This document shows, piece after piece, positions 1,090 through 60,900 of a stretch of 64,000 nt of DNA. A model generated the notes under the pieces. The model saw nothing but the letters and a program-made list of their open reading frames with translations. It made no database searches and was not told the origin of the DNA. The position numbers and the translations under genes were made by a program. This DNA is from Telopea speciosissima (taxonomy: Eukaryota > Streptophyta > Magnoliopsida > Proteales > Proteaceae): NCBI RefSeq assembly GCF_018873765.1, contig NC_057924.1:4650001-4714000 (forward strand), in the 5' to 3' direction. Numbering within the stretch: the stretch's first letter is position 1; the number at the start of each line of letters is the position of its first letter.

Positions 1090-1206
1090 AAAAAAGCACT
1101 TGAGAGCGCCTTGGTCGCCTTGGTGATGCCTAGGTGGGCGGCTTGTCGCCTAAGCGCTTAGGCACCTCTCCACCGCCTTGGGTCACTTTGCCGCCTTGAC
1201 AACTAT
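1090..1206. mobile_element. End of a hAT-like element with GCCTAGGC word array
   Basis: The segment is packed with variants of GCCTAGGC in both orientations (GCGCCTTGG, GCCTAGG, CGCCTAAGCGCTTAGGC, CCGCCTTGG). It finishes with CCGCCTTGACAACTATG. That terminus is the inverted form of the CATAGTTGTCA end of the element at 25,678. Only one terminus is clear; the other end may be truncated or may lie in the AT-rich sequence to the left. Confidence 0.5.
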
Positions 1207-1795
1207 GGTGTCGTATCGGAGGGGTGATTTAAGAGATGTATCGTATTGTAACGGAGAGACGCAAGATACGCATGGAAATGGTCAAGAAATTCATGGATGT
1301 GCTTATGATACATATAAAATACAGTTTTGAAGAATAAAACACCTTATTATGCAATATGTAAATATATATCAGTTTGATGCAAGGATTTAAATCGTTTACC
1401 TATCTAGTGGTGCATAACACAAAAAAAAAAAAAAAAAAAAACAAAAGTAAAGAAAAAAAAGGGAGATCAACAACTTTACCACTTTTTTGCCCAAATCTGT
1501 TTCAATCTGAGATTTGAACATTGTAAGTCCCCAAAACTTGTTGAAATGGTGAAGATTAGAGGTGTTTCTCTTACTCGTATCAAAGAGAAGAACAAGTTTC
1601 CAAGGCCTTCGGTCACTCTCATTTTCGTATCTCACTCATGGTTTTTGTTTCGCAGATTTAAAGGAGGCATATCTTACTTGTATCAAATTGTATCAGTCGA
1701 TACAAACTTTTAAAAAAAAAAATAAGTATCATAGCGGTAAGCATCGTATTGATTCCCACCAAGACCGATACGTATCGGCCGATACAATATGATAC
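1207..1795. mobile_element. Non-autonomous element with CGATACGTATCG words, in NOT9 copy 1 intron
   Basis: Variants of the word CGTATCG/CGATACG recur at 1,209-1,275 and 1,735-1,795, including GATACGTATCGGCCGATAC. The middle part from about 1,395 matches 59,700-60,100 in NOT9 copy 2, so that portion was present before the duplication. Open frames in it (for example on the minus strand near 1,396-1,635) are conserved only because the DNA is duplicated. They resemble no known protein. Confidence 0.6.
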
Positions 1796-2005
1796 CTACC
1801 TATTACTTAAAATCCTGGTGAAGCTAGCTCTATCAACAATCCTTGTTCAATCTGTGGTGTCAAATTTAGGAATGCTGATATTCATCATACTCCTACAAAC
1901 TTACTAATTGTACTTTGGAATCGCATATGATTATAACCAACCATTATATATAAATAAAACAATACCATACCCAAAGTAATATATAGAATCATCTGTCACA
2001 TTTAC

Positions 2006-2112
2006 CTTTACAAGGGCACCAATAACACCCAAGCTGGTAAGCCTCAGATATTCGAGTGGCCTTGTCGCATCTTTTGTATCGAGGAAAGGGTAAAGATACA
2101 CAGGTATATGGG
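2006..2112 (-). CDS. NOT9: NOT9 copy 1 exon 5
   Basis: This exon of 107 bp follows an acceptor reading TTGTGCAG and ends at an AAG|GTAAAT donor. It encodes (A)[10 protein letters not shown]... through [14 protein letters not shown], the best conserved block of the family. The split first codon joins exon 4. The paralogous exon is 60306-60412. Confidence 0.88.
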
Positions 2113-2540
2113 CTGCACAAGAACAAAACAAAAATTTGTCAGTTTTCCATTTCTATTTAAGGGAATAATGCAACAAATAGATACTTATAGAATTCACAGA
2201 AGAAACTTCTTCCTTCAAAATACTAAGAAATTAGTAAGCAATATCTCAGTAGGAAACCCATTAAATATGTCAAGAAAGATAACAGGAAGAAATTACCATT
2301 TAGGAACAATGTCCTTGTGTCTGCATGAGAAGCTATACACTGTAATAATAAACAAAATCACAGCAAGTGAAAAATAAAAGCATCAGTTGCTTGTGCAAAA
2401 TGACAAAGGCGGGAGTAACCAATAAATATAACCATATTGCATTCATAAATTTCGAATGAATGAATTCCAAATGCAATGAGAATTAGATGAGGAAGTAGCA
2501 CGAACATCACATCACTTAACCTACACTCAATGACTTCATG

Positions 2541-2579
<39 letters not shown>

Positions 2580-5500
2580 TCTCTCTCTCTTACCCTTTCA
2601 ATCACTTCCCCATGTGTATTGAATGTTTGAACATCTTTCCTGTAATGTACAACAGTACTACCCCATCTTAATATTACTTGACAAACTACCACAGCTACAA
2701 GGTGCTTCGCTATAACTTATAAAGGGCGTACCAAGTGCACGAGGCTCCCGCCATTGCGGGTTCTGGGGAGGGTCATAATGTACGCAGCCTTACCCCTGCT
2801 TTCACAAAGAGGCTGTTTCCAGACTCAAACCCATGACCTCTTGGTCACAATGGAGCAACCTTCGCCATAGCTTATGTAAATGATAAAATGTATGCAAATC
2901 AAATAAAGAATGATGTTTATCAGATTCAAGCTCTGTTCATTTGCAGAACAGAGGAGATGAAGCCGTTTCATATAAGATGAAGAAAGAGATTTAACAGGTC
3001 ATATCAATTAGCAAAAGCACATAATCTGAATAGTTTTTTGTCAGGAAAAGCTACTACAAGTGGAGTTAGAGCAACTTAGTGCTCATTCCCAAGAAGGAGA
3101 ACCCCGAGGTAATGTCTGATCTCCGCCCTATTAGCCTATGCAATTTTGCTTATAAGATTATGGGGTTTCTCAGCAGATACGAAGGTTTCTCGGGTCAGCT
3201 TGTTAATAGGCAGAAGAGCTGTTTTGTTTTGAGTGGTATGGCATCTCCTGCTAGGGCCTGCCTAGTAGGGGAGATTACAGGTTTCCCAAGGAAGTCTCTC
3301 CCTATCACCTACTTGGGGGCACCTCTCTACTCGGGAAGGCTGAAGATTTGTCTGTTTGATGGATTGATTGATAAGATTAGAAGCAAAGTTGCAGGCTGGC
3401 AGGGAAAGTTGCTGTCCGCAGGTGGCAGGATCACTCTTTTAAAGGATGTACTGTCTTGGATCCCTATACATGTTCTTGCTATGTTGGCTCTGCCTAAAGC
3501 GATCACTCGACAAATTTATGATGTTTTTGCTGATTTCCTTTGGGGCAGTTCGGAGTGGGGAAAGATAAAGCACTGGGTTGGTTGGCAGAGGGTCTGCAGG
3601 CCGCTTGAGGAAGGTGGTTTGGGGATTAGGCTGCTAGAGGATGTAGGCCTTTCCCTCAGGCTTAAGGGTCTGTGGAGGGCCCTTGCGGAGCGGTCATTAT
3701 GGAGTGATTTCTTTAAGGCCAAGTTCTTTAAGAATCAGCATGTGGCACTTTCAGAGGCGGCTGGGAATGGTTCGAAGTCTTGGCGGAACACACTGGATCA
3801 CAAGGATCTCCTGTTGAACAACTCTAGATGGTTACTAGGGGCAGGTAACATTTTCTTTTGGTTGGATAACTGGATGGGTTTTGGCCCGCTTATAGACACA
3901 GTGGATAATGGGCTTGTGGTTGATGTGGGGCTGCGGGTGAAGGATGCCATTGGTGAGGATGGTTCCTAGAGGCAGGATGTGCTAGACAGCATAGACTCAG
4001 ACGCTATTAGAGAGTGTATTTCGTCAGGCTCCTTCTTTTTGTCTGACTGCAAGGACGTGTTGGTTTGGACCCTCTCTAGCAATGGGTTGTTCTCTACCAA
4101 GGCTGTTTGGAATGCGGTGCGGGGTGGGGCGCCAATGGTTTCCTATGCGAAGTGGATCTGGAATCATATACTCCCAGTGAAAGTGGGTTTTTTCTCTTAG
4201 CAGCTTTTGAATGGGAAGATACCCACTGATGACTCCTTGATGTCACTGGGCATCCCCCTGGCTTCAAAGTGTTATTGCTGTGGAAGCCCTCGGAGGGAGA
4301 CGACGGATCATTGCCTCGCTGCTGGAGGCACGACGACTAGAGTTTGGGGCTACTTCTCCAGAGTTTTTGACATTGTGCATCTCCCCACCCAGGATGCCAG
4401 AAGCCGAGTTTTACTTTGGCAGGGGTTGGCGGGCGGCCATTGCCTCAGTGCATATATTACAGGGATTCTGCCATCTTTGATCATTTGGGAGCTCTGGAAG
4501 GAAAGGAAAAACAGAAGGCACGGTGAAAAGAGGCGGACAGCTAGCTCCATAATTGAATGCATCAAAACTTGGGTGAGGGAACTACCCTATCTGGCCAAGG
4601 TAGGCACTCACGGGTCTGCTAGGGATGGATTAGTATTGCAGTGTCTTGGTTTGTCGGCACCCGCCCTCAGGAGGAAACGCCCTATCCCAGTATACTGGTG
4701 CCCCCCTTTTGTCTCGGTTAAGCTGAATGTGGATGGCGCTTGTCGTGGTAACCTTGGCCTAGGCGGCGGGGGAGGGATCATCAGGGACCGACAAGGGGAA
4801 GTCCTGGCTGCTTTCTCTAACTTTTATGGCCCTTGCACTAACTCACTGGCAGATCTAAGGGCTTTGAGGGATGGACTGAAATTGTGCAAGGGGATGGGTT
4901 TTATGGATGTGGTGGTTAATTACTTAATTGTGATTCAGAGGCAACTATCAAGGTAGTTAATTTGAAGAGGTGTAGCTTGTAGGGAGGATGGTACTATTAC
5001 AAGGAGATTCAGGAGTTAGTGGCTTCCACGCGGGCTTGCGTATCATTTGCTTTCAAGGAGAGCAAAAGAGTAACTGATTGGTTTGCCAATCTTTCTTGTG
5101 ATACAGAGTCATCTGCCAAGTTTCAGCCTGGGAGCATGCCTTTGGGACCTTTTCAAGCCATTCTCTGTGAGGACAAGGCTGGTTTACCTCCTACGAAGTT
5201 AATGGCTATTTTTTCTTGCTCTTGTATGGGTTGGCTAGGCTATCCTAAGTGGTGTGTCCTCTTTGTGTCGTGGGTTGGGGTAAGGTGGAATGTCGCCCCC
5301 TGTATTCTTTATTAATTTTCATGATTCTAATAAAAGCTTAGGGGCCAGACTGGATCCTAGGTAATATTCGGGGGGGAAAAAAAAAAGTGGAGTTAGAGCA
5401 AGGAGAGAGCCTTATGAGAGCAGTAGTCCAGGTATGGGCGTGTTAGAACCCAGCTCCCTAAATTATTTATCTTGTAACCAAAACAAATCTAAGCCAAAAA

Positions 5501-8500
5501 AACCCAAAATTGAAAGGGTAATTTATGAAACACCCCCTGAAAATGGAACGAAACTCAGATCACCCCCTCTACACTAACGGTGTTAGTCTGTTGTTAGTTA
5601 TTGGTGTAAAAGGACTATTTTATCCTTGTACTAAAACATTAGAATTAAATTTACAATACTATCCTTTCCTTCATCTTCAACCTAAAATACCCCACTGCCT
5701 CTGCTTCACCCTGGCAGCACCACCGCCGCCGCCTCTGCTTCCCTGAGGAGGTCCAAACACGACGACCCTCGACGGAGGAGGACCAAAAACAGAGTGAACA
5801 TGGCCATGGTGTCGCCGTCTGGACTTCGCATGAAAGCAAAGCCCAGTGCCACCCAACCAAATGAACCACCTCTCTACAAAATTTCATCCAATTCTAGTAC
5901 CCCTCTTCCCCTCCTACCCATCCATCTATTCATCTCCACAAGACTGAACTTTTTAATTAATTTTGTAGGCCTAATTTCAAAGATTGACCGCGAAGAACTC
6001 CTCCACCTCCTCTTTTGTCTCCGTCGCCGTCTCTGTTTCCCTCTGATCAATCTTGGTATGAGGCTTATAACCTCTTCCCTCATGATCTTCACCTGCCCTG
6101 GAGAAATTTGGAGAAGCCTTTCCTGAATGCTAACTCTCTTCTTGCGAATATCATCCTCCGGAATGAAAACTGAGTGACCCAAGAATCTCAGATTACACAA
6201 CAGAAATTCGAAATGGGTCTTCTAGATTAGGCACACAAAGTTAATTCTACCAATGAAAACCCAAGAATCTAAGATTACACAAACTCTAACATTCATCCAG
6301 AATCATAAAATGGATCAAGCGGAACTCAAATTCGTCAAGATTCAAACAACCTCCAATTCAAAACCCCAAAGAAATCCTAAAGAAGTTCAGCAAATCAAGA
6401 CTAGACAGAACTCGAAAGCTAAGAATCAGAACCCAATAACAGTCATCAATTCCGACGGTGGTGGTTGTTAAAACCCTAACTCCATTCGGTTTAGCAATTT
6501 GGGGAAGAAGGAGAGGAAATATTCCCTCTCCGATTCCTTGTTTTAATTTAAAAAAAAAAAAAGAGTACATGTTGGGCTTTTTAGATTCAAGGGTAAAATA
6601 GTAAATATACTCTGCTCAAGGGTAGTTTAGGGTTTTCAAAAAATTTAACTAGCTGACTTCATCAGTTAACAGTGTAAAACTAACAGTAGGGTCTAATCTG
6701 AGTATAGGGCTCTAATATAGGGGGTGTTCTGAGTATTTTCAAATAAGAGGGGGTGATCTGAGTATCATTCCATTTTCAGGGGGTGTTTCGTAAATTACCC
6801 AAATTGAAATGAAACTTACAACTAAGTTGCATGAACGTAACAGAGAATTTTGATTTCATTAAATCATTGTGAAAACTTAAGTAACCAGTAAACACAGCAT
6901 TAATTTGAAATCATCTTTTATGAGAGAAATGTCTACAACCTCAAGGAATGCAACAATGGTAAGTTCAAAGATTGCAAAGCACAAATAAATGTGAGAGGAT
7001 AACTTATTGACATTAGAAGGAAAAATCAACCTGAAGAAGAGCAAGTGCATTACAAACTCGGTTAGATGCTCCCAATGTTAGGGTTGGTGAAAGACAATGA
7101 TATATTGATATTATCTCCTGCATAAGCATTAATCAATAATCATCATATCAAATCAAGTAATATAAACCCTGAATGCAGGGAGACAAATACACAATTTCAT
7201 CTACTTCAGTTCATTATACAAATAGAATGCTCTAAAACCTAAGGTAGACAAAAATCTCACACAAGGTACAAAAAGCAGATACAGGGGATAACTGCAAGAT
7301 GCAAACAACCCCCCACCCCAAAAAAAAAAAAAAAAAAAAAACTACACGTAACCAACAAACAACAGCTGCAGTAGGAATGGAAACTTCTGGGTTCAGTTGA
7401 GACTTACCTGCTTGACAATGGTTTCTTTATTTTCAAGTTGATATTGAGGCTCATGTCCGACCTTCCTGGGGTGGTACCGCCGCCACCCAAGGATCCTCCC
7501 TCTCCCTCCCTTTCATCTACTCCTACCTCCCCCCCTGCTGGTCCCCTACTCCCTGGCCTGTCTTGGTCTTCCCTTTTTGGCAACTCCCAGTCTCCTTCTG
7601 GAGATGGCCTTCGTTTACATTTTGTTCCCCTCACCTTTATCGGTTCCACCAAGGTTGCCTAGTATGATTCTATCCTCCTGGTCAATGATGCTCGCAAATG
7701 GGAAACCTGCCTTGTTAGGAATTTTATTGGTAGGTGTCCCCCCTTCCCCATAGTCAAAACCTCTCTTTCCAAGCAATGGAAACTTCTGGGTTCAGTTGAG
7801 ACTTACCTGCTTGACAACAGTTTCTTTATCTTCAAATTTTCTGATGAGTTTGACAAATCTCGTGTTCTTGAAGGTGGTCCGTGGAATGTTGGTAGGAAAC
7901 CAATCTTCCTCAGGCAATGGGATCAATACTTGCAATTCAACAAACTCGACCTTAGCTCTATCCCTCTCTGGGTTTCTCTGCCAGGGCTTCCGCTGCACTT
8001 TTGGTGTGAGGATGGTGTCAGCATGGTGGGCTCTATCCTTGGGATGCCTCTCTACTTCGATGGAGGAACAAAGAAAAAGATGGGCTCGCGTTCGCGAGAA
8101 TCTGCATCGAAGTTACCGCTGATGTCCCTTTACCATCCTCTATCACTGTCACTGATAACGAAGGGTTTTCCTTCTAGCAACCCGTGAACTTTGATTGGTC
8201 TCCCCGCTCCCCATTGTGCTTCCAGTAAAGTCTTTGATCACTACCATGGTAAATGCCAGCCCCTACCTTCTCCACTTTCCATTCCCCTTACTTCTGGAAC
8301 CCTCCCCCAACCCTCTCTTTAACCCTTCAACCCCATCGCTCCTTCAACTTCTCTTACCTCTGCCATCGCCTCCCCTGGTAAATCTATCTCGGGCTTTCAT
8401 AAATCCATTACCTCCCTCTACCCTCCTCCCTTGGTGGTGATGGTGCCCCCTCTTCTTCCCCCTCTCGAAGTCGTCGCCAGCGTCGGACTCGTAAAACTGT

Positions 8501-11500: not shown

Positions 11501-14500
11501 TTCTGGTTTCTGTAAGAATTTTAGTTTATCTTAAGAAGGGTTTCTCCTATATTTAAAATCTGACCATTCAATTGCTTCCAAATTTTGATGGTTTGTTCTC
11601 TATACCGAATAGAGAAATCAACTCGAATATTAGGCCAATCGGAACTTTGCTGACTAAGATATTTGACTTTCTCTTTGGTGACTTGTTTCCTAATTTCCAG
11701 TGATTGTGGTTCATTTCGGCTTTGTACAACCCTAACCTTAGATGCCCTTATCACCATTATTTTCATTTTTGAAGAAATTAAGGGCAGTATTACGAATTAC
11801 ATGAGAAGTCAGAAAGGATGATAACTCCCAAACGATCTTATCACCTTCTAAAAGGAAACCTTATTTTGCATGATGTGGATACCCATTCAAACCATTCCAC
11901 CAGCTGAACCCATAATTCCTCCAAAATACTAGTGGAAAATACTTAGCTAACTTGTGGAGTCTGATTGCCTCCTTGTTTCAAGACCAATAAGGTTTTACTT
12001 CTTGCAATGTTTTTTAAACTCTAGGCACAAGTGCACAATATAAAACTCTCCAAGAAAATAGTTCCTACTAATCCTAATTGGTGGATTTTGGGAATATAAG
12101 AAGTTAAGAACTAAGCAGACTATCAACAAAATGTACAGTGAAGTGAAATATGTGATAGTAGAACAAAAAAGAAATAATTTTACTGAATTGATTTAAAGAA
12201 AGAACCAAAAAATAGGATGAGATACATCCTCCTGACAAGAAAAGGTATTTCGCTACGAAAATGGCAAAGTGGCTAGTACACTCTTGCCCAGCTCCCCAAA
12301 AACAACGTTCGACTTGCATGTGTTAAGCAAGGTTCAAGAACTCGTCTCGAGTACAGGTTTCGACCTAGCCAAAAAGCGAGTTGGGCCGAGATCTTAGCAA
12401 GTTGGAATACAGCCTATTTTGGGCCATTTAAACACAATGGCACTATCAGATTTTGAAAAATCAAAGTCCAAATAGGAGTTTCGCTTAGTGGGAAACCAGG
12501 ACAAACACTTTTTTTTTTTTTTTGATGAATAAAAAGTTCATTAACCAATGGAAAGAAGGGGGGAGGAAAATACAAGCACGAGGTAAGAACAAAGCCTTGC
12601 CTAAACAAGGCGAAGACCAAAAAAAAAGGGGAAGATCCCCAACAAAAATAGCGCACTAAAGAAAGGGCAAGAACTAAAAACCAGCGAAAGCCAACCAATG
12701 CGAAGTGAACTATCCAGGATCCACTCTTTTTCGAAAGTGAGATCACTACCGGCTTGTTGAAGAAGCCCTTCGGGCTCCCTAAATGCAGCCATGATCTTAT
12801 ATCCGATACCACCAGACGCGCCCCTGCCTCTTTCGCAGTCAAAACTCTCCTCTCCAGTGGGACCAGCCGGGCCAGAAGCCTCGTTTCCTTCCACTAATTC
12901 AAGCGATTCAGTCAGTAGTAAAGTCATCTCACTGAACATTGGATTATTTACAACCTCGTGAAAATAACAACGCAAAATCGAAAGTCCAATATAGTTGTTT
13001 AGCCTCATCTTCCTCCCCTTACGAAGAAGAAAATCCAGTGGGTTGTTTTGAAGACTTATAGAGCTAGTGCCGGTTTGGAACACCAGCGGTGACCGAAGCA
13101 GCACCCTTTGGGGGATGGTTTCTCGATCCGATCTCTCACTTGAAGAAAGATAGCCACTATGATTAGTATAAAATACGAGATTATGAGAGACTTCTTTTTT
13201 CAGTAAACTGAATGACTTCCATTTTCCCTTTACTAGTAGGGGCCCAGCCCTGCTCGGCTCCGCTTACAGGTGCGGATCCTTAGCCAGTGCTACTCCTAGG
13301 TATAGATATGCTATCGGATTGATCTGCAGGCGGGCTGCAGCTAGTGCTTCTTGCGCTAGACGGAATGAACCCATTTCACTCGGACGGATAAGAGATGAAT
13401 GCAGGACTGATTGAATACCTCGTCAAAGCCGGGAATTGGATCATCTTGTTCGAGATGCACCTAACATACCCTTCGATGCAATAATAGCTTCAATGGGGCC
13501 ATCTTGATCCAACAACCCAGGGAATAACAGGAGATTACGGCGGGTCTGGTGCCCACCTCCATGGAGCAGTGAAACCGATAATTGATACCCAATCCCCGAG
13601 GCTCATTCTCAGAACACACTCCTTTGATCGCTTTTTCTCATTAAACAAAACAGGTGTTGAGAGGCTTGGAAGTCGACGAGTAGGGGAAGCACCGGTTCGG
13701 CCATGCCAGACGTTCGAGAAGCCGTTCAAATCGAATCGAGACGGACGCTTTGACTCATGCTTTGGAGCCGTTTTATGGCAAGACGGCCGAGTGGTCGCGT
13801 ACCAAAGTGAGACGTTCAATACAGCCGTCTTAAACTATCCCACGTACGAGAAGGAGATGTACACGATAGTCTTGGCGTGAAACTGGAGGCACTATTTGCT
13901 CGGGAAGGAGACGCTTTATGAATAGGCCACTCTGATCACAAGCCCCTTTAGTATCTACAGATGCAGTCCAAGCTTCAGGAGGCGCGTCATATGAAGTGAG
14001 TTTCAGTTCCTGCAACGGTTCGAGTTGGTGATCAAGTACAAGAAAAGAAGGGCCAACGACATTTTCTGTCCAAACCCCCAGTAGTTGCCGCAACTGCTGT
14101 TTCTACCACTTTATTGGACTTCGGGGACCTTACGGCGGAGTACTCGGAGGGACGTCAAAAGGCGTCTGGGAGAAGACGGCCCGACTACAGACGGCAGATG
14201 GCTATAGCCGGCTAGACGACTTACTCTCCAAAGACGGCAGAGTATGTCGGGCAAAGAAAGGCGTCTCGCAGTCCTTCATGACGCCAGAGTTGGATTACAC
14301 TTTTGAGTGGATCAAACTCTGGCTCACCTGGAAAGGCATTCTTATTGGCCCAGGATAGAAGCAGATGTCCAACGGTGATGGGTTGTCACGACAGAGGGCA
14401 TAACCTCTGATATCCGAGCTTAGAGGCAGAATCCTCTCTGAGCAGAGCAAGGAATAGGCAATGTAGGGACAAACACTTACTTTGTTTTGAAAGCTTTCCA

Positions 14501-16894
14501 ACAAGTCCAAGATTGCTTAAATCTGATTTATATTGAAGGATTTATGTACCGGTCAAACTTAATTTAGTGTGCGCGAATGCTGTCAAAATCGCTCTAAATG
14601 AAAATATTTTTTGGACATCAAAACAAATTAATATTTTACTGCACTTTTGGTTTTTAGCAATATTTAACCATATTAAGATTTATGGAATTTTTAGATTTGA
14701 GAAAAATCCCAGTATTAGAAAGCTGAAAATTGCACCTACCGTCGAAAATCCAATTTTTGTTCTTGAATTGGGGGGGTTGACTTTTTAACCTATTGGAATT
14801 TGATGTTTTAACTATTTTTATTGGATTCATATAGGGGGTATTTGCTTATTTATGAATAATATTTTGAGTAAACGAAATACAAATACAAAAACATATTTGC
14901 ATAAATAAGTATCTGTCTGTCCTGGTTTCTGGCATGCATAAGTGTCTATATACCAAGGTTTGCATAAATAGGTGTCTGCATACCAAGATTTCCCACCAAG
15001 ATGACCAAAACCACAGAGATCTTGCCTCTCGGTCGAGATCTGGCACTCATATAATTGTGTTTGGGTCGAAATCTCAGTCGGGTCGAGATCTCGACCGAGT
15101 TGGGGTAAAATGGGATCTCGTCTCGAGCTTTTGAGATAGCGAGATATTGTCGACATCTCATGAGTTCTTGCACCATGGTGTTAAGCATATAGCTAGCATT
15201 CCTTCTGACCCAGGATCAAAATCTTCTTTTGAGTATGATTGGGCCCTGCAGTGGTAGAACCTGGTGAACCGGGCATACTCCTTCACATTTCTTCTCGTAT
15301 GATTTTTGCTACTTCGTTTAGTTTAGTGATTGATATCAAAGAGAGTCTAAGTCTAGTCACTCAACTAATCCACACATGGAGTGGTAGTTTGCCAAAAAAT
15401 AGTACATAATATACAAAAATGAGGAAAATAATCAGCATAAATTCAGAGAACAAAATTGAAGGACTTGTTTGGCAACTGTCTAGAACATACTTTGATAACA
15501 AACTGACCATATTGTAGCTTTACAATTTTGAAACAGAATTGACGAAGGGTTATGGACGTACCTGTAAGAGTACAGCAATAGTACCAAAAGAATTCCACAA
15601 CAATGGGGCCAAATCTTGAAATATTTCCCTTTTCTAAAAGAAGAAGAAAAACACAAGTTAAAGCCCATCACAGAAAATTTAAACTTCAATTTATGTCATA
15701 GTTGTCAAAAGAAAATGTTCACGGCAGAATTCAATCAACCACTGTTAACTTACAGATGTAGAAGAAGAGGTCTTCAATTATAAATGAATACAAACATCCT
15801 ATAACTGCAGGTTTTAAATACAAAAAAATAATAATAATAAAATAAAATAAAACCACATAAATTGAATATCCCTGCTTGCAATCTTAATTAAGCAACTGGA
15901 AAGGTATTAACAAACACAACATGATGAAAATCTCTGGGTAAAGCACCATAATAGGTTATTATATAAGTAATATTGAAACTCACGAACAGAAACTGCATAA
16001 GATACCTCACAACGAATCGGTTATTCTAGATTTATGCATGAAACATACTGCAACATAATAACACTACAACCAATTGAAATGTATAACTAAAACAATCTTG
16101 CAAAAGCCACATGCAAGCATAAAAGAGTATCAACATGTTTCCTAATTTCATGTCCTTTAAGGCTTGAATGAAGTCATCTAGAGTTGTCAAACAAGTATAA
16201 AGATGGAACTTTGAGTCTAGCATGGATGAGCCGCAGTAACAGATATCTGAAATATTAATCTCCAGACATCGTAAAATGCTTTATCCAAGTAGCCAACAAG
16301 TAAAGCAAGTTAATCCAACTGAAGCATTGTAGAAAACAGAAACCGATAAACTAAAACAGATCATTCTTCGATGAGCTTGCAATCGATGAATCTACCACTA
16401 ACGATTTTCGGAATGAACATTTTTGCCACATATAAAACATTCTACGATGACTTTAAAAGAAACGAAAATTGACAATTCTTTGAGGTCTTCGACTGAGATT
16501 AAAATTGATAATTCTTCAAGAGGCTTTAAGATTTCGATAAGAGAAGTGGCATGGGACCCTTTTCCTTGTTTTTCAAATGCCCATTAAAATTCCAAAAATA
16601 AAAAATAAAAAAACCCTAGCAATTCAACTCAGCTATAAACAAAGGACAGTCTTGAATTAAAACGATAATAATCAGGTGGAAGAGGGTTGGGTGAACAAAA
16701 CCAGATGGGCATACCTTAGAGAGTTCAAGAAGTGCATTCTCTCTAAGATCAGGGTTACCAAGCTCAAGCACCAACTGCTCGGCAGACGCCATTTTACAGT
16801 CCTTATTGGCCTGGGCAGAGTTGGCGCTGGCAGAATTGGAATTGGGGCCGCTGAAGGGAGGATCCAGAGAGAATGATGGAGGACGGATAGACAT
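2006..16894 (-). CDS. NOT9: NOT9/CAF40 (CNOT9, RCD1-like) copy 1, exons 1-5, 3' part outside window
   Basis: NOT9/CAF40 is the armadillo-repeat subunit of the cytoplasmic CCR4-NOT deadenylase, which shortens mRNA poly(A) tails and docks regulators. I rebuilt five exons with GT-AG borders: 16715-16894, 15562-15633, 7031-7117, 2297-2339 and 2006-2112. Together they encode about 163 residues in one continuous frame. Diagnostic stretches include the start of the family core ([20 protein letters not shown]), then [31 protein letters not shown] and [17 protein letters not shown]. The family is usually about 300 residues, so the remaining exons should lie left of position 1. Introns are large because of inserted transposons. 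Several normally conserved residues differ, so it may be a diverged paralog or a decaying copy, although no visible exon contains a stop. Confidence 0.85.
2297..2339 (-). CDS. NOT9: NOT9 copy 1 exon 4 (43 bp)
   Basis: This tiny exon is flanked by TTACAG and GTAATT. It encodes [14 protein letters not shown] plus one base of an alanine codon, matching the family block CVASHPDTRxLFLNA. The paralog at 60597-60639 reads [14 protein letters not shown]. It is far too short for ORF-based detection. Confidence 0.88.
2543..2590. repeat. (CT)n microsatellite
   Basis: About 24 CT units with one interruption (CTCACTCT). The paralogous position at 60,840 has only about four units, so the tract expanded or contracted after the NOT9 duplication. 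Confidence 0.95.
3060..3074. repeat. Target-site duplication, left, of LINE 3075-5386
   Basis: GTGGAGTTAGAGCAA here is repeated exactly at 5387-5401, directly after the poly(A) tail. NOT9 copy 2 near 61,160 carries the same sequence once, uninterrupted. Confidence 0.95.
3075..5386 (+). mobile_element. L1-type LINE, 5'-truncated and internally deleted
   Basis: The element starts inside the reverse transcriptase ([20 protein letters not shown]) and ends in a short A-run after an AATAAAA signal and a GGGGCCAG... tail also seen in the LINE at 38.9-45.5 kb. It is bracketed by a perfect 15-bp target-site duplication. The catalytic centre of the RT is missing, because sequence jumps from the NFAYKI block straight to the [15 protein letters not shown] block. 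The unoccupied site survives in NOT9 copy 2, so insertion postdates the duplication. Confidence 0.93.
3077..4956 (+). pseudogene. LINE ORF2 remnant: RT thumb, zf-RVT, RNase H
   Basis: Three consecutive open pieces cover the post-catalytic part of plant L1 ORF2. They run 3079-3969 ([49 protein letters not shown]), 3979-4200 and 4207-4956. The last contains the zf-RVT cysteines ([15 protein letters not shown]) and an RNase H start ([12 protein letters not shown]). In-frame stops at 3967 and 4198, a further stop at 4954, and the loss of the RT core with its FADD motif make it inactive. The protein parallels the longer copy at 43218-45264. Confidence 0.9.
5516..6800. mobile_element. Pack-MULE-like element with 9-bp TSD
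   Basis: Long terminal inverted repeats begin GGGTAATTTA(T/C)GAAACACC at both ends and stay alike for about 53 bp. They are flanked by a perfect 9-bp duplication, AAATTGAAA (5507-5515 and 6801-6809), the signature of Mutator-like elements. There is no transposase. The interior contains GC-richer, gene-like DNA including a GT47 fragment. The right terminus has an extra subterminal repeat of ACTCAGA(T/A)CACCCCCT. The element sits in NOT9 copy 1 intron 3 and is absent from copy 2. Confidence 0.9.
6045..6186 (-). pseudogene. Captured GT47/exostosin (KATAMARI1/MUR3-like) gene fragment
   Basis: On the minus strand the frame reads [17 protein letters not shown], followed by a stretch ending [13 protein letters not shown]. 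This is the typical C-terminal helix region of plant GT47 xyloglucan galactosyltransferases, Golgi enzymes of cell-wall synthesis. Only about 45 residues match; upstream and downstream sequence does not continue the domain. Sitting inside a TIR element, it is best read as a captured exon piece. Whether it is expressed cannot be told. Family assignment rests on remembered motif similarity. Confidence 0.65.
7031..7117 (-). CDS. NOT9: NOT9 copy 1 exon 3
   Basis: This exon of 87 bp lies between a TTATGCAG acceptor and a CTTCAG|GTTGAT donor and is in phase 0. It encodes [11 protein letters not shown]... through [12 protein letters not shown]. It is one codon shorter than copy 2 (62909-62998, 90 bp), having lost 3 bp after the CLS/SLS position, and so keeps frame. 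Confidence 0.88.
7376..9423 (+). mobile_element. L1-type LINE carrying ORF1 only
   Basis: The element is bounded by an imperfect 14-bp duplication, ACAGCTGCAGTAGG (7362-7375) and ACAGTTGCAGTAGG (9424-9437). It ends in a poly(A) tail after GGTAATGAATTTTTTATTC. It contains a proline-rich start, a DUF4283 domain and a long Ser/Pro-rich tail, then goes directly to a 3' UTR. The endonuclease, RT and RNase H are missing. A piece of ORF1 (about 57 bp, ACTTCTGGGTTCAGTTGAGA...) is present twice, at 7,384 and 7,786. The first copy lies upstream of the ORF1 start, as in an aberrant 5' joining event. Confidence 0.85.
7453..9202 (+). pseudogene. LINE ORF1 (DUF4283) pseudogene
   Basis: Starting with [16 protein letters not shown], the frame proceeds to a DUF4283 RNA-binding domain near 7,780-8,120 ([54 protein letters not shown]). 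A very Ser/Pro-rich tail follows. Frames shift several times (stop at 7660; breaks near 8,120-8,190), so no intact protein is made. ORF1 proteins of plant L1s coat the LINE RNA. No CCHC knuckle is visible here. Confidence 0.8.
9438..12320. other. NOT9 copy 1 intron 2 sequence without genes
   Basis: No exon or recognisable domain is seen. There is a G-tract near 9,640-9,658. The segment 10,780-11,120 has LTR-like composition but I find no matching partner. The piece 11,640-11,830 is repeated at 18,400-18,582. Confidence 0.5.
11640..11830. repeat. Interspersed repeat, copy A (partner 18400-18582)
   Basis: Both copies share the same succession of phrases, for example TTTGACTTTCTCTTTG, CCTAATTTCC, CATTATTTTCATTTTT and TACATGAGAAGTCAGAAAGG. 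Open frames on the minus strand are conserved only as a result of the DNA similarity. Its element class is unknown. Confidence 0.8.
12740..13620. other. Organelle-like (probably mitochondrial) DNA segment
   Basis: This stretch is unlike its surroundings: near 50 percent GC, with few homopolymers and phrases such as GGGGCCCAGCCCTGCTCGGC that are typical in style of plant mitochondrial spacers. A 167-codon frame runs on the minus strand at 12,601-13,104, but I do not recognise a gene in it. The mitochondrial origin is inferred from composition and memory of style, not from an alignment. Exact limits are uncertain. Confidence 0.45.
13640..14335 (+). pseudogene. Ty3-gypsy polyprotein fragment (RNase H onwards)
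   Basis: The frame reads [19 protein letters not shown], then [17 protein letters not shown] and, after a stop, [10 protein letters not shown]. These are the signature blocks of the RNase H domain that follows the reverse transcriptase in Ty3-gypsy elements. Downstream text ([13 protein letters not shown] spacing near 14,235-14,265) fits the linker before integrase. Several stops and frameshifts break it. No LTRs accompany it. It lies next to the organelle-like stretch and inside the nested LINE. Confidence 0.75.
14479..14960 (+). repeat. AT-rich interspersed repeat, copy 2
   Basis: This is the reverse-orientation relative of 345-790 and 38,500-38,910. It is the internal part of the MULE-like element at 12,330-15,178. 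The conserved start TTTGTTTTGAAAGCTTTCCA follows immediately after the LINE target-site duplication. Confidence 0.8.
15562..15633 (-). CDS. NOT9: NOT9 copy 1 exon 2
   Basis: This exon of 72 bp runs from a TTCTTTTAG acceptor to a TTACAG|GTACGT donor. It encodes the 24 residues [20 protein letters not shown] plus VLLQ, which are identical in type to the family core. It is phase 0 at both ends. Confidence 0.92.
15634..16714. other. NOT9 copy 1 intron 1
   Basis: An AT-rich intron of about 1.1 kb with GT-AG ends. I see no inserted element in it. A (TAA)n-like run lies near 15,825-15,850. Confidence 0.7.
16715..16894 (-). CDS. NOT9: NOT9 copy 1 exon 1 (start)
   Basis: Sixty codons from ATG at 16892-16894 to an AAG|GTATGC donor. 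The N-terminus [16 protein letters not shown]... is a short variable, Ser/Asn-rich leader. It leads into [19 protein letters not shown], where the conserved armadillo core begins. Family members usually have [13 protein letters not shown]. The start matches the family's usual leader length. No promoter motif can be assigned with confidence upstream. Confidence 0.88.
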
Positions 16895-18582: not shown

Positions 18583-18703
18583 GTGTAACACTCCAAGAAG
18601 ATGACATAGTACCGGCTCGCTTGGGAGATCGTTGAGGGGTCCCCGCCAAGAGACGGCTTAGTACCAAGGGGTTTGGGAAATCGGTGAGAAGATGCAAAAC
18701 TTA

Positions 18704-18746
18704 GTCCCACATCGGCTAGGGAGGGAAATCTTGAGCTATTGATAAA
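18704..18746 (+). promoter_or_regulatory. snRNA-type USE plus TATA-like box in TRIM LTR1
   Basis: GTCCCACATCG at 18704-18714 matches the plant snRNA upstream sequence element RTCCCACATCG exactly. TATTGATAAA begins 22 bp downstream (18737). A USE-TATA gap of about 23-26 bp is the arrangement known for RNA polymerase III U6 promoters in plants. Function is inferred. Confidence 0.6.
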
Positions 18747-19039
18747 GAGTAGCCTCCTCTACTTGGAATGATGCGTTTTAAAGCCGTGAAACCCATTGGG
18801 GTCAAAGCGGACAATATCATGCCAAGGGAGGGGATGGGTCGTTACAATGGTATTAGAGCAAACTCCCGACACCAGTGGTGGGGCCACAATAGGGACCCTG
18901 TGCTTGTAAGGGGGGAGAATGTAATGCCCCAAGAAGCCGACGTAGTACCGGCTCGCCTTAGAGATCGTTGAGGTGTCCCCACCAAGAGACGGCTTAGTAC
19001 CAAGGGGTTTGGGAGATCAGTGAAGAGGTGCAAAACTTA

Positions 19040-19082
19040 GTCCCACATCGGCTAGGGAGGAAAATCCTGAGCTATTGATAAA
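19040..19082 (+). promoter_or_regulatory. snRNA-type USE plus TATA-like box in TRIM LTR2
   Basis: The same GTCCCACATCG (19040-19050) with TATTGATAAA at 19073-19082. Motif and spacing (22 bp) are unchanged from LTR1 even though neighbouring bases differ. Confidence 0.6.
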
Positions 19083-19338
19083 GAGTAGCCTCCTCTACTT
19101 GGTATGACACGTTGTAAAGTCGTGAGGCCCATTGGGCCAAAGCGGACAATATCATGCCAAGAGAGGGGCTAGGTCGTTACAATGGTATCAAAGCAAACTC
19201 CCGACACCGGTGGTGGGGCCACAATGGAGGCGTTGTGCCCGTAAGGGGGGAGAATGTAACGCCTCAAGAAGACGGTGCAGTACCAGCCTGCCTGAGAAAT
19301 TGTTGAGGTGTCCCCACCAAGAGACAACTTAGTACTAG

Positions 19339-20024: not shown

Positions 20025-20031
20025 CTCCCCC

Positions 20032-38460: not shown

Positions 38461-38499
38461 AACCAGGACAAGAACTTATTTATGCCAAAAACCATATCA

Positions 38500-38926: not shown

Positions 38927-39061
38927 TTTTTATTTATTTATTATTTATTTTTATATCTTTTTATTTTTTTATTTTTTTATTTTTTCGATTTTGTTAGATG
39001 CACGTTAGCATCTAAGTTGGCTCTGCAGGTGCACGTTAGCATCTAAGTTTCGTAGGGTTCG

Positions 39062-40793: not shown

Positions 40794-40819
40794 GAAATTT
40801 AATAGTTGGTCCATTCTCA

Positions 40820-41125
<306 letters not shown>

Positions 41126-41129
41126 CTAT

Positions 41130-44100: not shown

Positions 44101-45264
44101 CTGATAAAGAGGATAAATTGGTGTGGACCCCGGCGAGAGATGGGTGTTTTTCTACCAAATCAGTTTGGAATGAAATCAGAACTACTTCCTCCACTCCCTC
44201 TTTCGCCAAATGGTGCTGGAATCATTCGATTCCCACCAAGATTGGCTTTTTCACTTGGCAGGTACTATGGGGGGGGGGTCCCTACAGATGACGCCATCAT
44301 GAAGATGGGAGTGTCCCTAGCTTCAAAATGCATGTATTGTGGACAGCCTAGACGTGAATTGGCAAATCACTGCTTGGCTGCAGGTGGGACAGCCTGGAAA
44401 GTTTGGGAATTTTTTTTAACCTTGTGTGAGGTGGAGGTTGTTCCAGGGCACGATGTGAGAAGCAGAATCTTGTTTTGGCATAGGCACGCCAAAGCTTATA
44501 GCCTCGGTGGCATGATTATTGGTTTGCTCCCTTCATTCATTATTTGGGAATTATGGAAGGAACGAAATAATCGCAGACATGGAGAAAAAGCACGTCCGGC
44601 CAGCCGTATCATTGAGGTAATTAAACTCTGGGTCAAAGAGATTCCTTATGCTCCCACGTTTAAAAAAGCCCCTTCGTTCAAGGCATCTCTGCTTCTCCAG
44701 TTTTTTGATATCTCTCACCCTCCTACTATTCATAAGCCGCCAATCCCGGTATACTGGTGTCCTCCATTTTCTTCAGTAATGCTTAATGTGGATGGTGCTT
44801 GTAAAGGTAATCCTGGAGTTTGGGGGGGGGGGGGGAGAGGAGGTATTGTTAGAAATATGGAGGAGGCCATTATTGCTGCAATTGCTAATTACTACGGGCC
44901 GTGTACCAACTCGCTGGCTGAACTTTGTGCTTTAAGAGATGGTTTAGTGCTGTGTGCAAAGTTGGGTTTTGAGGAATTTCATGTCAAATCAGATTCTGTA
45001 GTTACTGTGTTATGCGCCTCGAAAAGGAGGTGTAGTTTTTGGGAAGGTTGGTACTGGTTCCAGGAAGTCTTGCAGCCGATTGATTCTCTTAGACCGATGA
45101 TCTCCTTTACTTACCGTGAAGGCAATAGAGCTGCGGAATTTTTGGCTAATTTAGCTTGTATCTCAACATCGGACTTGGAGTTTTATGGTGAATTGCACAT
45201 CCCTCAGGGTTTGCGTCAAATTTCTAGGGAGGATGCTCTAGGTTTTCCAGTGCTGAGAAAATAA
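41130..45264 (+). pseudogene. LINE ORF2: endonuclease, RT, zf-RVT, RNase H
   Basis: The endonuclease is split: NKPSRRLRSMIV...VDLVAIVEPK near 41,145, then GGDFNAVLD, ARLDRFLFN and CSDHAPIQL from 41,510. RT spans 42,590-43,200 (LVLIPKKDNPEVMSDFRPIS, LKLDMAKAYNRLEWVFL, GVRQGDPLSPSLF, SLFADDTIIFSKG). After a frameshift at about 43,220 the next part runs to 44,291 and breaks in a G-run. The last part (to 45,264) has zf-RVT (CMYCGQPRRELANHC) and RNase H (LNVDGACKGNPG, YREGNRAAEFLANLA). The FADD centre and RNase H acidic residues remain. About three frameshifts separate the pieces. Confidence 0.9.
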
Positions 45265-45467
45265 GAGGTCTTTGTTGTTGGTGGTTTTTCTGGGGGTGAG
45301 CTCTTCTCTTTGAATGGTTTAGTGGTCTGTTATTTTTTCGGGTTGGGGTAAGGCGGGAATATCCCCCCCTTGTACTCTTTTATTCTTGAAATTTTGTTTT
45401 AATAAAATCCTAGGGGCCGGCCCAAGTCCCAGATAATATTCGAGTTAAAAAAAAAAAAAAAAAAAAA

Positions 45468-45540
45468 AGCTTTCTAACAAATCCAAGATTGCTTAAATCT
45501 GATTTATATTGAAGAGTTATATTCCGATCAAAGTTAATCT
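45468..45540 (+). repeat. Inverted arm of the AT-rich repeat
   Basis: AGCTTTCTAACAAATCCAAG and what follows is the reverse complement of 38,830-38,902. Before the LINE arrived these arms lay about 10 bp apart as a large palindrome. Confidence 0.8.
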
Positions 45541-50789: not shown

Positions 50790-50799
50790 GAGCCGGGAT

Positions 50800-54992: not shown

Positions 54993-57900
54993 CTGTCTCA
55001 GGGAAAGTAAAAAATAGATCATGGTCAAGTCCATTATATGCTGCCTACGGATAAACCAGAAACGAAAAAGATAAAAAAAAGGGAAGGGCCGGGGGAGGGA
55101 GAGAGAAAGAGGTAAAAGAAAATGGCCCAATATAGCTAAGATAAGCACCAAATAAGATGTTAATGAACCTTGGATTATCTGACAGTCTAAGATAACAACG
55201 AATGATATATTTCAGCAGACGAGGAGAGGGCTGCTTGGCAAGATACTGAACCACGGTTCCCAAAACACCAGTCACGTTAACAAACAGCTCTGGTTTTGTA
55301 AAAATATAATTCAGCCCCATATCATGCAGCATAATTTTTTGAACTATAAATGTAGCCACCTGTAAGGTCAAGTACAACAACTTAGTAATCGACCAATGCA
55401 TTACACACACCCCAAAAAAAAATGTGAATTGACTGAAGGGGTTACTGATAAAAAGCAAGAAATGCAACTAAGCCATAAAAACCAAAGGTAGACAATGTGG
55501 GTCCACAAAAGGTGTTCTCTAAAAAAAGGATGGATGAAGTGGCACTGCCTGTTCAGGAATTTTTTTGGGGAGCGGGAAGTTTGATCCTCCTCCATTGTGA
55601 GGAATGGACTGAACTTTTTCAAAAGGGCAGAAACTAGAAGGGGGTCACGAAGGGTGCAAAACTGCAAACTGTTGAAAATCACAACCAAATCTCAGCTGAT
55701 GGTGGATATGATTGTCCTAACCTTGTCCAAAACTGTGACCTTCAAAAAGAATTATGGGTTGGAGGGATCGATGATATTGAGCCTCTTTGGGATGCTAAGG
55801 TTCATCATCCCAATTAATGTCTCTATAATGCAGATGTTCCAGGATCCCTCTGTCTTTTAGGCAATTGACCTAAAGAACCAAAGCCTCTTTGGGATGCTAA
55901 AGTTCATCATCCCAATTAATGTCTCTATGATGCAGGTGTTCCAGGGTCCCTTTGTCTTTTAGGCAATTGACCTAAAGACCCAAATCCTACCTTATACACA
56001 GACTCGATAATCAAGCACACACAATCATGCCCATGAACTTGAATACAAGAAAATAGAACAAGAGAAAAATTGAATACAACGGCAAGAAAGCAATACAAAA
56101 TAGGAAGCACTGACAACAGAAATAGAAGAGACCATTAACCTTTCCATTGCATGCCAAAAATTCTTAACTACAACGGCACCACAATCATTCCACACTGATG
56201 AGTTTTGACATTCCAATGCTAGCCCCGCAAAGAGAAGTGACAGGAATATCCGTATAATGCTTCAGAACTCAAAGAAACATTGCGTATGCAAATCCATGCA
56301 TGCCTGACCACCCTTTGAATTGAATGTGGACCTTCAGAAGAAGAAACACCACGGTCCCAATCTTGCAAGGACAATGAGGATGAAGTGATCCTCTGGTTGG
56401 GCAGGTATTATCAGGTCTCTTTATTTTCCTCTCTTATCCCATCTACACAAATTTTCATTTCCTAGTTGTTGTTACTCAGTAGAGAGAACCTTTCCAGGTC
56501 ACTCCACCCCAGGTGTGGGAAGAGCCTTTAAATTTCAACTACCTCAGCAGCTAAGTTGCATTCTCTCATTGGCCCTCTTTTGTTTCCCAGCAGTAAATCC
56601 ATTTAGGACCATAAGTAATCTGAGAAAGATGGAAATGAGTGTTCAAGGTTCATCAGAAACTAGAGGCATCACCAACATAAATGACATCATGAACCCAAAA
56701 AATTATGCCACATATTTTTCCCACTCTAAAAAGAGATGCCTCAATAAAATGACAAAATTTAAGGGGATTAATAGTTTTATCCATACATAGTAACCTGCAG
56801 CCACATCAACAACCACATTTTATATTTATTTATTATTTTTTTTTTGGGGGGGGGGGGGGACCATAGAATATTTTGAAAGTCTGAGAAAAAAGAATTGCAG
56901 TGGAAAGTGAAGCAAGTTATATGAGTCAGAAGAAATGCTGTGACTCACTGTTTTTGAAAGCTCACTACCAAACTTCATTGCGCACAGGCACTTAGGGATT
57001 ATTTCCGTAGAGAGAAGGAAGCTGATAACTTCTGTATCATCAACCTGCAGAGGAGTGCAGAACTTTTATTTTGTTATGTGCAATTAAATGAATACTATAA
57101 ACAATAATGAACAAAATATTACTAGTGATACATATTGGAAAAAATCTTCTTCAGGCATCAGAGAACTGCATGTGTCTGGGTGATTGTGTTGCATGTATGT
57201 GTGAATGCGCATGTTAAGTGTAAAATAGTTGAACAATAAGTATTAGTTGTTCATAAAGAAACAATTAAACAGAGAACTAAGAAAGTAGACTATGATTTTG
57301 TTCCAATATGCGTGCTGCATGAGCCTTGTCATAAGGAGTCGGGCACATACTCAAGTGACTTGAATGCAATTCAAATTTCTGCAAGTCAAAAATAACTGTA
57401 TTTCCTAAATATGGCTTATTCTGGATTTAGCTTGGTTTAGGAACTATATCCCATTTGGCTCTAGGGGGAAATTTTCTATAGAGTTATACTATCATGGAAA
57501 TCTCTGGAGTACATGGAAGAAAGGTCCAAGATTTCAGTTCGACTGAGATTTCAACCCAGGTCAAAACCAAAATATACCACTGAAACAGCAGAAATATACA
57601 ACTGAAATGACTGAAATGACACCGAAATATGGCCCATTTCGGTGAGAAAACCGAAACAACAAAGACCCCTCAATTTGCATGCCATATTGTTTCGACCAAT
57701 GTTGAAACCGAAATAGGTCGCCAAAATTTCAACATTTTGGTCGGAATTTCAAATGTAAGGGGAGAAAGTCGGATCTGAAGGGAGCACAAGAGGACAGCGA
57801 ATAATAACCATTAATTGATTATGAGTGGCGCAGCAAATTAGGTGACCAATCACGATTGCTTTAGAGGCATTTCATTTGATTATGTAAAGAGAGAATGGTG

Positions 57901-60900
57901 GCAGTTGGTGAGATCTAGACCTCATTAGGAGATAGTGAAGCTCGAATGGATGTCTCCACCAACAAGATCTATGAAATTAAACTTTGATGGGAGTAGATTG
58001 GGCAATCCAGGCCCACCTGAAATTGTAGAAGTTTTTGGAGACCATAAAAGGAAATATACTCTTGGCTTTTTCTGGAACCATTGAGGGGGGTTCCAATAGA
58101 CTGGAAATCAATGCTATTATTTGGGGCTCATCAATCTATGCTACAAATAATAGCCGTGGACTCATCTTACCATAGAGTTTGTTATAATATCAATATGGTA
58201 GATGGTTGTCTCATAATAAAGAAGTCCATTGGAAGCTGGTCCATCTAATTTGGAGAGCCAGATTAGATGCATATGCGAGTAGGGGAGCATCTAGTTTTCT
58301 TAGTGGCCTAGAATCTCTACCTCCTTGGCAGATGCTTTAGCTTGAGATAGAGATGTGAGGGAGGAACCTACATCAATACCCGATTTTGTGATGTGAGGTC
58401 TTTTTGGATAAAAGACGGCACCCCTAAGGGGTAGTTGCTATGTATTTTGTACTGTTTTGTATACATATCTATCTCAGTTCGTGCATACAGCTTTCTTGGC
58501 TGTGTTCTATAAAAAAAAAAGGTTAATTTATCAAGGGTCACCAAATCTAATCTTTCAGCCACTGTCAAATTCTTCACTTTCCAGGTGTTCAATTTTTTCT
58601 ATTCAAAACAAAACTACTAAACACCAATGAATGCATCTTTGGTGTGTTGTGAACTTGTGATCCTACAGCAGAGATTAAAGAAATCTTTGTTTAAAGGTCA
58701 ACATTCCCCTTGGAGAGAGACTGAATAAAGGAATGCAAAAAATTTTTAAAGAAGAATGTTCAAGAAATATCCCAAATTGCTAGACTGAACAGGCACCTGT
58801 TAAGTCCATCTGGGATATTGCCCAAGCTTTCTGTAAAGCATGATATTTAAAGGAGTTCCATCCATGGTACAAGGTTTCGATGGAATTTCTCGAAACCAAC
58901 GGAAATATATCGGTTTTACAGGCAGTCAAAACAAAACAACCTGCAATACTGAAGGATTGCAATTTTTCTAACGAAATTTCGGCCTGTTGTTTTGTTTCTC
59001 CAATATTTCAGTCGAAAATATTCAAAGCCTTTGGCATAAATTTCGACGAATTTCGCTCATTTGGTCTGGTGTCGGCAGTGAAGGATGAAAAACCCAATTT
59101 TTGTGCTTTCTTGGCCGAATCACTGTTATACACGGTTGGAACAAGTACTTGGGCAGTAGACGAGTGCAGTGGAAGGAACAATTTGCTGCGTTGTTGGAAG
59201 CTTTGTGCAAGATTCAAAGTTAGTGGTACATCACTTTCCTCGTTAGATCGTTTACTTGTTCCTACTAAACCTTGACCATCAAACTTCTAACAATTCCATC
59301 CACTTAGCTAGCTCAGGATCTCGTAAAGACCCACTAGCCCAATTTCTAACCTGAATCTGTAATTTTCATAAACCTGAGAATACACATACATACCAATCTT
59401 AAGAAAGCCAGCATTTGTAACCTGAATCTTCAATTTTCATAAACCTGAGAATTGGGTTTCCCATAAACACAAAATCCATAGCCTTGATCCTCAAACAAAT
59501 TCTCAAATTAAGAATCCAAAACCCTAACCCTAGTTCTATAAGAAACCGGATTGTATCCCTTATTATTTCTTAAACCCTAGTTTTTTTTTTTTTCAAAAGG
59601 TTTAACATAAAACCAAAAACTCATTATGGTTAGGGAAACATCTCTCCTGCAGTGGGTGCTTGTATCGACCAATACAGACTGATACAAGTAAGATATACTT
59701 ATCTAGTGATGCACCACCACAAAAAAAAAAGGTAAAGAAAAAAGAGATTTAATCACCAAAAAAAAAAATGAGATCAACAACTTTACCACTTTTTCGCCCA
59801 AATCTATTTCGATCTGAGATTTGAACATTGTAAGTCTCCAAAACTTGTTGAATTGGTGAAGATTGGAGTTGTTTCTCCTACTCATATCGAAGAGAAGAAC
59901 AAGTTTCCATGGCCTTTGATCACTCTCATTTCCGTATCTCACTCACAGTTTCTGTTTTGCAAGTTTAAAGGAGGCATATCTTACTTGTTGACTGCATCGG
60001 TCGATACACACTTTTATTTGAAAAATAAGTATCGTAGCGGTAAGCATCGTATCGATACCCACCGAGACCGATACTTTTCGGTCGATACAATATGATACCA
60101 ACCTATAATTAAAACCCAGGTCATGCTAGCTCTATCAACAATCCTGGTTCAATCTGTGGTGTCAAGTCTAGGAATGCTGATATTCATTATATTCCTACAA
60201 ACTTACTAATTGTACTTGGAATCACATATGATTATAAACAGCCATTATATACAAATAAACAATACCAGACACAAAGTGATATATAGAATCATCTGTCACA
60301 TTTACCTTTACAAGGGCACCAATAACACCCAGGCTGGTAAGTCTCAGATATTCCAATGGTCTTGTCGTATCTTCTGTACTGAGGAAAGGGTAAAGATACA
60401 CAGGTATATGGGCTGCACAAGAATAAAACAAAAAATTGTCAGTTTTCCATTTCTATTTAAGAGAATAATGCAACAGATAGATATTTATAGAATTCATAGA
60501 AGAAACTTCTTCCTTCACAATGCTAAGTAATTCGTAAGCAATATCTCAGTAGGAGACCCATTAAATATGTCAAGAAGGATAACGGGAAGAAATTACCATT
60601 TAGGAACAATGTCCTTGTCTCTGAATGAGAAGCTACACACTGTAATTTAAAACAAAATCACAGCAAGTGAAAATAAAAGCATCAGTTGCTTGTGCAAAAT
60701 GACAAAGGCAGGAGTAACCAATAAATATAACCAGAATACATTCATAAATTTCGAATGAATGAATTTCAAATGCAATGAGTATTAGATGAGGAAGTAGCAA
60801 CACCATCACATCAATTAACCAATACTCAATGACTTCATGAGCTCTCTCTCTTTACCCTTTCATTCACTTCCCCATGTGCATTGAATGTTTGAACAACTTT

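Follow-up and report, generated by a model that had tools for sequence, protein, structure and literature searches.

Short words that recur on both strands beside transposon termini, and that change from one element to the next, raise the question of what keeps a word uniform within an element and what replaces it in another. The 64,000-nucleotide stretch analysed here (C9:4650001-4714000, the window) poses this question repeatedly. The initial annotation proposed that at least seven places share one architecture, each with its own short palindrome. Genome-wide counts were obtained by searching the 823-Mb assembly (1287 contigs).

Word arrays and elements in the window

The number of word arrays exceeds chance. 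With 250-bp intervals and a non-simple 6-mer present in at least two copies on each strand, 60 intervals reach a threshold of at least five copies, versus 4.6 per dinucleotide shuffle. Of the initially noted places, 38226, 28751, 57526, 25551 and 59851 are ranked by this test; places outside that list are ranked as well (21801, 27776, 6776, 25301, 33451 and 52176). Individual arrays show a 9- to 79-fold enrichment of their word, with the caveat that the words were picked after inspection.

The description of the words as strict palindromes did not survive. Exact copies of the named words are few: GCCATGGC occurs five times in the window, whereas GCCTAGGC (at 4757, outside its own array), CGATACGTATCG (at 1766), TCGAGATCTCGA (at 15083) and CTCGGTTTC occur once each, and CCGAAATTTCGG and CCACATGTGG not at all. 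A near-palindrome scan, which also lists low-complexity and unrelated places, finds only 15001-15200 and 25601-25850 prominent among the noted arrays; the remaining arrays are half-words in both orientations. Strict palindromy was dropped as the defining feature, because exact palindromes are rare and half-words on both strands are the rule.

Two elements in the window are complete, as defined by an exact 8-bp duplication and inverted termini matching at 12 or more of 14 positions. Each of 10 Markov shuffles contains none. The complete elements and the nested insertion are as follows.

12328-15177, plus strand: complete hAT-like element with GAGATCTC-type words, termini CAAGGTTCAAGAACTCG / CATGGTGCAAGAACTCATG and duplication GTGTTAAG
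12511-14466, no strand assigned: later insertion within the 12328 element, with flanking GGACAAACACTT repeats at 12499-12510 and 14467-14478
25678-26212, plus strand: complete hAT-like MITE with GCCATGGC words, CATAGTTGTCA at both ends and duplication GTCTTGAC

Both complete elements have termini of the CATRGT/CAAGGT type and are hAT-like, including the 8-bp target-site duplication that is a hAT feature. The ends of hAT elements start with CA or TA, and short inverted termini of this kind are represented here by CATAGTTGTCA, CAAGGTTCGAAAACTCGG, CAAGGATTTAAGTATCGG and TAGGGATGTAAAYGGAT. Subterminal motif repeats are present in the core, GATAC, AGGCG and hAT-gene families described below and are putative counterparts of the transposase-bound repeats of hAT elements. 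A hAT transposase gene with the PF05699 dimerisation domain accompanies TAGGGGTGTCAATGGG-ended elements; none was linked to the CATAGTT, CAAGGTT or GATAC families of the window.

Three other places are less complete.

57520-57760, no strand assigned: ATTTC/GAAAT word-rich member of an old dispersed family, ends uncertain
58863-59060, plus strand: CGAAA/TTTCG word array with left terminus CATGGTACAAGGTTTCG
62461-62660, plus strand: fragment outside the initially noted list, with terminus TAGGGATGTAAATGGAT and few ATCCG words

A genome search for the family at 57540 gave 106 candidate places, 40 of which were scored. Two more copies of the word-rich region at 57515 lie just beyond the window (C9:4644523 and C9:4596302, 89% identical). 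The right end of the 58863 element was not found in the window. CATGTGG/GCCAC words are dense on both strands at 28740-29060 (79-fold over the rest of the window), and neither a hAT terminus nor a duplication was recognised for this array in the window. The 62461 fragment resembles a complete element elsewhere, L072:629-1086, in which a TAGGGATGTAAAYGGAT terminus is followed by TTCGGA words and the duplication is CTCTTAAT; an empty site for the fragment was sought near 6700 and not found. The proposed common architecture is upheld in part: the arrays are real and two elements are complete, 28740 is unproven, with no terminus recognised, 57540 and 58866 are incomplete, and 1207 and 59640 count as a single duplicated locus.

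The window contains a Copia-type polyprotein, PPR repeats and a LINE with DUF4283, a combination that suggests a plant genome. The Copia-type element (19698-25542) lies directly beside the 25678 MITE, and its repeats (19698-20024 and 25216-25542) are 98.8% identical, which indicates a young insertion. A tandem repeat at 18584-19335 consists of 2.2 copies of a 336-bp unit with 87% matches. Near both ends of the window lies a segmental duplication (1397-7439 / 59696-63212) with blocks that are 86-90% identical.

One core under three word sets

A single core of ∼415 bp is found with three word sets: AGGCG (348-1207), GAGATCTC (12328-15177) and GAAACC (38229 onward). The corresponding features are listed here.

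348-1207, minus strand: AGGCG/CCTAGG-type word element; core 348-751, spacer, array about 1097-1207, ending in CATAGTTGTCAAGGCG at 1207
14480-14943, minus strand: core arm within the 12328 element, shared with 348-751 and 38474-38914, often paired as a foldback elsewhere
38229-38914, plus strand: left part of the third core-bearing element, with left terminus CATGCAAAAACAACTCGG, GAAACC/GGTTTC array and first core arm
45466-45538, minus strand: fragment of the second, inverted core arm, beyond the intervening LINE (about 38930-45466)

The core at 14480-14904 matches 348-751 at 88% and 38523-38914 at 90%. A second end of the 348-1207 element was not found within the window. In the GAAACC-word element, the foldback core is interrupted by the LINE at 38930-45466, which contains DUF4283 and reverse transcriptase pieces and is bordered on either side by similar short sequence.

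A genome search with the core yielded 3631 candidates. Forty were scored, and many are inverted pairs that form a hairpin. Relatives of the 12328 element with the same ends occur in L087-L115. Word type is cleanly split in 30 core loci. In 23 of these, the flanking arrays contain 3-13 GAGATC words and 0-5 GAAACC words, whereas the other seven contain 7-13 GAAACC words and no GAGATC, with both sides in agreement. GAGATC is confined to one side in three of the 23 loci (L086, L097 and L105). One of these, L086, is the window element, whose second array has been severed by the nested insertion. The initial annotation held that words are uniform inside an element and different between elements, and these data agree: the switch occurs even on the same core.

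Duplications flank half of these loci, being exact in 8 of 30, matched at 7 of 8 positions in 5 and at 6 of 8 in 2. Paired ends with a duplication were not found in the other 15 of 30 with the two end patterns used; ends were missed, or flanks were shifted by one (L102). Complete relatives of the GAAACC type were read by eye in L090, with ATACTAAT on both sides, and in L104, with GTTACACT/GTTGCACT. AGGCG words with the CATAGTTGTCA terminus occur on the same core both at 348-1207 and at L055:149-1147, the latter being complete, with AGGCG-type words at both ends and a duplication of 7 of 8. On a tree of 48 core arms (36, 8 and 2, plus 2 unlabelled), much of which is weakly supported, the word labels require three changes. 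This is the minimum possible; shuffled labels require 11.4 on average, and none of 200 shuffles is as low.

One explanation for this pattern is that words are rewritten in place, such that all copies in both ends change together by gene conversion, biased mutation or selection and no ends are exchanged. The presence of GCCATGGC and CCTAGG/CCTTGG words behind one 11-bp terminus is in keeping with this idea. However, GAGATC and GAAACC elements are about 92% alike in their core, whereas their arrays and adjoining segments hardly align, which fits replaced ends. We consider rewriting in place rather doubtful, and exchange of ends would be the preferred account.

The core-bearing elements also have the very stable fold of hATpin elements, as judged from 999 nt of L095 (z −20.4 versus 20 shuffles). 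For the 147-bp element in L051 with seven flanking bases, z is −3.7. The stable fold makes hairpin small RNAs likely, as might be expected if a host factor, such as a silencing or replication protein, reads the arrays while the transposase binds elsewhere. This argument concerns the core rather than the words, and a host factor would account neither for the element-specific words nor for the presence of arrays on hAT genes. Such a role for a host factor therefore seems highly improbable.

Different words behind shared termini

The terminus CATAGTTGTCA, reported earlier as common to two of the places, is indeed present at 1207 (minus strand) and at both ends of 25678-26212. A further copy, at 15697, is without an array. 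A genome search for the 25678 family gave 1871 candidate places, and all 40 that were scored match. Paired CATAGTTGTCA-type ends with a duplication of 7-8 of 8 are present in 27 of 30 fetched loci (window copy included), and 26 of the 29 other copies have the same anatomy as the window copy; among the 30, paired ends with a duplication are lacking in L064, L067 and L084. With lengths of 489-546 bp, inverted termini, high copy number and no transposase, the family has the features of MITEs. The same is true of the complete 147-bp member L051:2036-2182 (duplication ATGTAGAT).

Within this family, the number of words behind the terminus is graded. The distance from the terminus to the first fixed sequence (n = 27) is 8 bp in one copy, 16 bp in 11, 23-28 bp in six, 32 bp in one, 38 bp in seven and 46 bp in one. 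These steps are mostly word units, for example GTCCTGGC and GTCGCCATGGC, and at the right end GTGACGCC is added in most copies. One terminus thus fronts differing numbers of words. The suggested spread of words by slippage or gene conversion accords with these gains and losses of units next to the terminus, which could arise by slippage or by recombination among words.

Word identity behind the terminus also differs. CGCCAT makes up 206 of 300 CGCC/GGCG sites in the 27 copies, and CGCCTA or CGCCTT none. In the three AGGCG-type arrays (window, L051 and L055), CGCCAT is absent despite the same 11-bp terminus. Genome-wide, CATAGTTGTCAAGGCG has 2603 sites versus 0 for its reversed control, CGATACGTATCG has 970 versus 28 for its reversed control, and TCGAGATCTCGA has 509 versus 121 for control. 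An IMG/VR scan for CATAGTTGTCANGGCG returned 31 stretches. All of them lack a CATAGTTGTCA/TGACAACTATG pair within 3 kb, and they were taken as chance matches.

The gain and loss of units could also mean that words are by-products of slippage in old MITEs, with no binding role, each founder having expanded a different seed. Indeed, the 25678 element also carries an ordinary (TTCGATTTC)-type microsatellite. Yet the words adjoin termini, on both strands and at both ends, and word type is exclusive for each core copy. In addition, hAT transposase genes end in arrays as well, like known binding sites. These observations make a pure by-product unlikely. In the three families tested, the arrays have shared termini and target-site duplications that simple-sequence expansions would lack.

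GATAC words form another family, represented twice in the window.

1209-1820, no strand assigned: GATAC/GTATC array of 14 words, 17-fold over the rest of the window, element ends not resolved
59640-60115, no strand assigned: GATAC/GTATC array of 10 words, 15-fold over the rest of the window, duplicate of 1209-1820

Independent insertion at 1207 and 59640 was considered and rejected, since 1397-2720 and 59696-60982, at 87% identity, are the two copies of a duplicated segment. Among 22 GATAC loci, the 8-bp duplication is exact in seven and matched at 6-7 of 8 positions in five; paired ends with a duplication were not found in the other 10. Termini in this family are CAAGGATTTAAGTATCGG or CATGGTTTAAAGTATCG, and L052 contains 42 GATAC/GTATC words within 803 bp. 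In L055, the AGGCG-word element (149-1147) and a GATAC-word element (1156-2724) stand back to back on either side of a common target, GCGGGAAC, and in the window these types of word are likewise adjacent (1207/1209). Possibly, AGGCG and GATAC elements have a common target preference.

Transposase genes provide a separate view of the arrays. A PF05699 profile search gave 1799 candidates, of which 150 were scored, all above the cut-off. On contig C1, the first 100 listed sites of the 16-bp terminus TAGGGGTGTCAATGGG were compared with the 18 listed hAT dimerisation domains below 81.9 Mb. Six of the 18 domains face an identical TAGGGGTGTCAATGGG located 873-1064 bp downstream, versus a mean of 0.017 and a maximum of 2 in 20000 rotations. 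The genome-wide count for TAGGGGTGTCAATGGG is 918 versus 1. The six domains correspond to L116/L120, L124, L125, L126, L127 and L128.

We read 11 3′ flanks of hAT genes, five of which (L124-L128) were chosen because TAGGGGTGTCAATGGG is present. In the first six flanks, AAACCG or GGGTC arrays precede an identical TAGGGGTGTCAATGGG at the ends of L116/L120 and L119/L121, and the other four (L117, L118, L122 and L123) have no array within 0.9-1.1 kb. The words behind this common terminus are of the TGACCC, CCGACC or AAACCG type. AAACCG and GGGTC counts are 15 and 0 in L120, 0 and 10-11 in L124, L125 and L126, 0 and 13 in L127, and 3 and 1 in L128, which is degenerate. Some hAT transposase genes therefore have word arrays of their own, in line with a DNA-binding protein that recognises them.

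The L127 array bears again on rewriting in place. It can be aligned with L121 and L124-L126, yet it has no CCTGACC (4-9 in the others) and 11 copies of CCCGACC (3-5 in the others), as rewriting would produce. The difference is partly T versus C before G and partly one lost base, and it is possible that CpG decay in a lineage other than L127 explains part of it.

Proposed word recognition and known systems

The explanation we favor is that the arrays are probably binding sites for the BED fingers of transposases, carried by non-autonomous hAT-type transposons that include MITEs and hairpin derivatives. Judged from sequence, the terminal bases would be the site at which a hAT transposase cuts and joins, and the array just inside each end would be a row of sites for the BED zinc fingers of that transposase. 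Palindromic words would suit paired fingers, and each transposase lineage would have its own word. Recombination or slippage among adjacent words could add and remove units and keep an array uniform, and ends with good words would preferentially be copied on. Occasionally, an element body might gain ends from another word family and so come under a different transposase. The CATAGTT families would likewise have a transposase partner, and words would co-evolve with the DNA-binding protein. The observation behind the initial annotation is partly confirmed, being largely real, and its interpretation is partly supported.

Published excerpts on other hAT elements bear on this proposal in both directions. 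Ac transposase binds subterminal AAACGG, of which three copies are required (PMC3260210). The Tag1 motifs AAACCC and TGACCC and the Herves motif CGATTCAT are bound by transposase (PMC3143072). In Hermes, a pair of BED domains binds a quasi-palindrome cooperatively, and in Tol2 AAGTACTT follows the terminus (PMC10368747). Against a binding-site reading, the excerpts state that AAACGG-rich Ds-like elements showed no excision when tested and that hexamers alone are insufficient for mobility (PMC3260210), and that no BED domain was bound at the Hermes right end (PMC10368747).

A bolder proposal, which we advance tentatively and think somewhat more apt to fail than to hold, is that wholesale word replacement changes hAT specificity. 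Bodies would swap word codes, so that several parallel word languages exist behind near-identical cutting ends, and an array would, through its length and purity, serve as an affinity dial by which a MITE could follow whatever transposase is active. Joint change of a transposase and its binding sites is difficult to observe, since the sites at both ends have to be altered without loss of movement. Here a core with three word sets, a 16-bp terminus combined with different words on transposase-bearing elements, and graded array lengths in a young family all occur in a single genome, which makes joint change directly testable. Matching of words may also pair orphan MITEs with their own transposases.

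Subterminal repeats and hairpin hAT MITEs are already known. For a core shared by three word sets, a terminus combined with several words and a graded series of word-unit states, searches of open-access literature, mostly at the level of titles and abstract openings, turned up no recognisable precedent. The hATpin elements of Moreno-Vazquez, Ning and Meyers (2005) are, going by the title, reportedly MITE-like hAT elements of diverse plants with very stable secondary structure; to the extent that a title permits comparison, the core elements here are similar in being hAT-like and in folding very stably.

Other comparisons draw on the accessible portions of the cited papers. The SIRC (short interrupted repeat cassettes) of Arabidopsis resemble the arrays in having short repeats and a proposed origin in MITE interiors, but they are direct repeats of 10-29 bp, and the portion available describes no element-specific both-strand words linked to hAT ends (PMC10342631). 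Hermes and Tol2 share a palindromic motif arrangement just inside the terminus, and their cooperative BED binding would be a putative parallel; they have few motifs per end versus up to 42 words per element here (PMC10368747). Arabidopsis Tag1 and the Anopheles element Herves have short subterminal motifs bound by transposase, and TGACCC and AAACCC of Tag1 resemble the TGACCC/AAACCG arrays of the TAGGGG-terminus hATs described here; the two Tag1 motifs are reported for the two ends of one element, whereas here each array read has one dominant word (PMC3143072). Maize Ac/Ds offers hAT membership, 8-bp duplications, heterogeneous non-autonomous elements and subterminal AAACGG bound by transposase, binding being putative for the words in this study. 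The Ac/Ds family has one word, whereas several are present here, with AAACCG close to that of Ac (PMC3260210).
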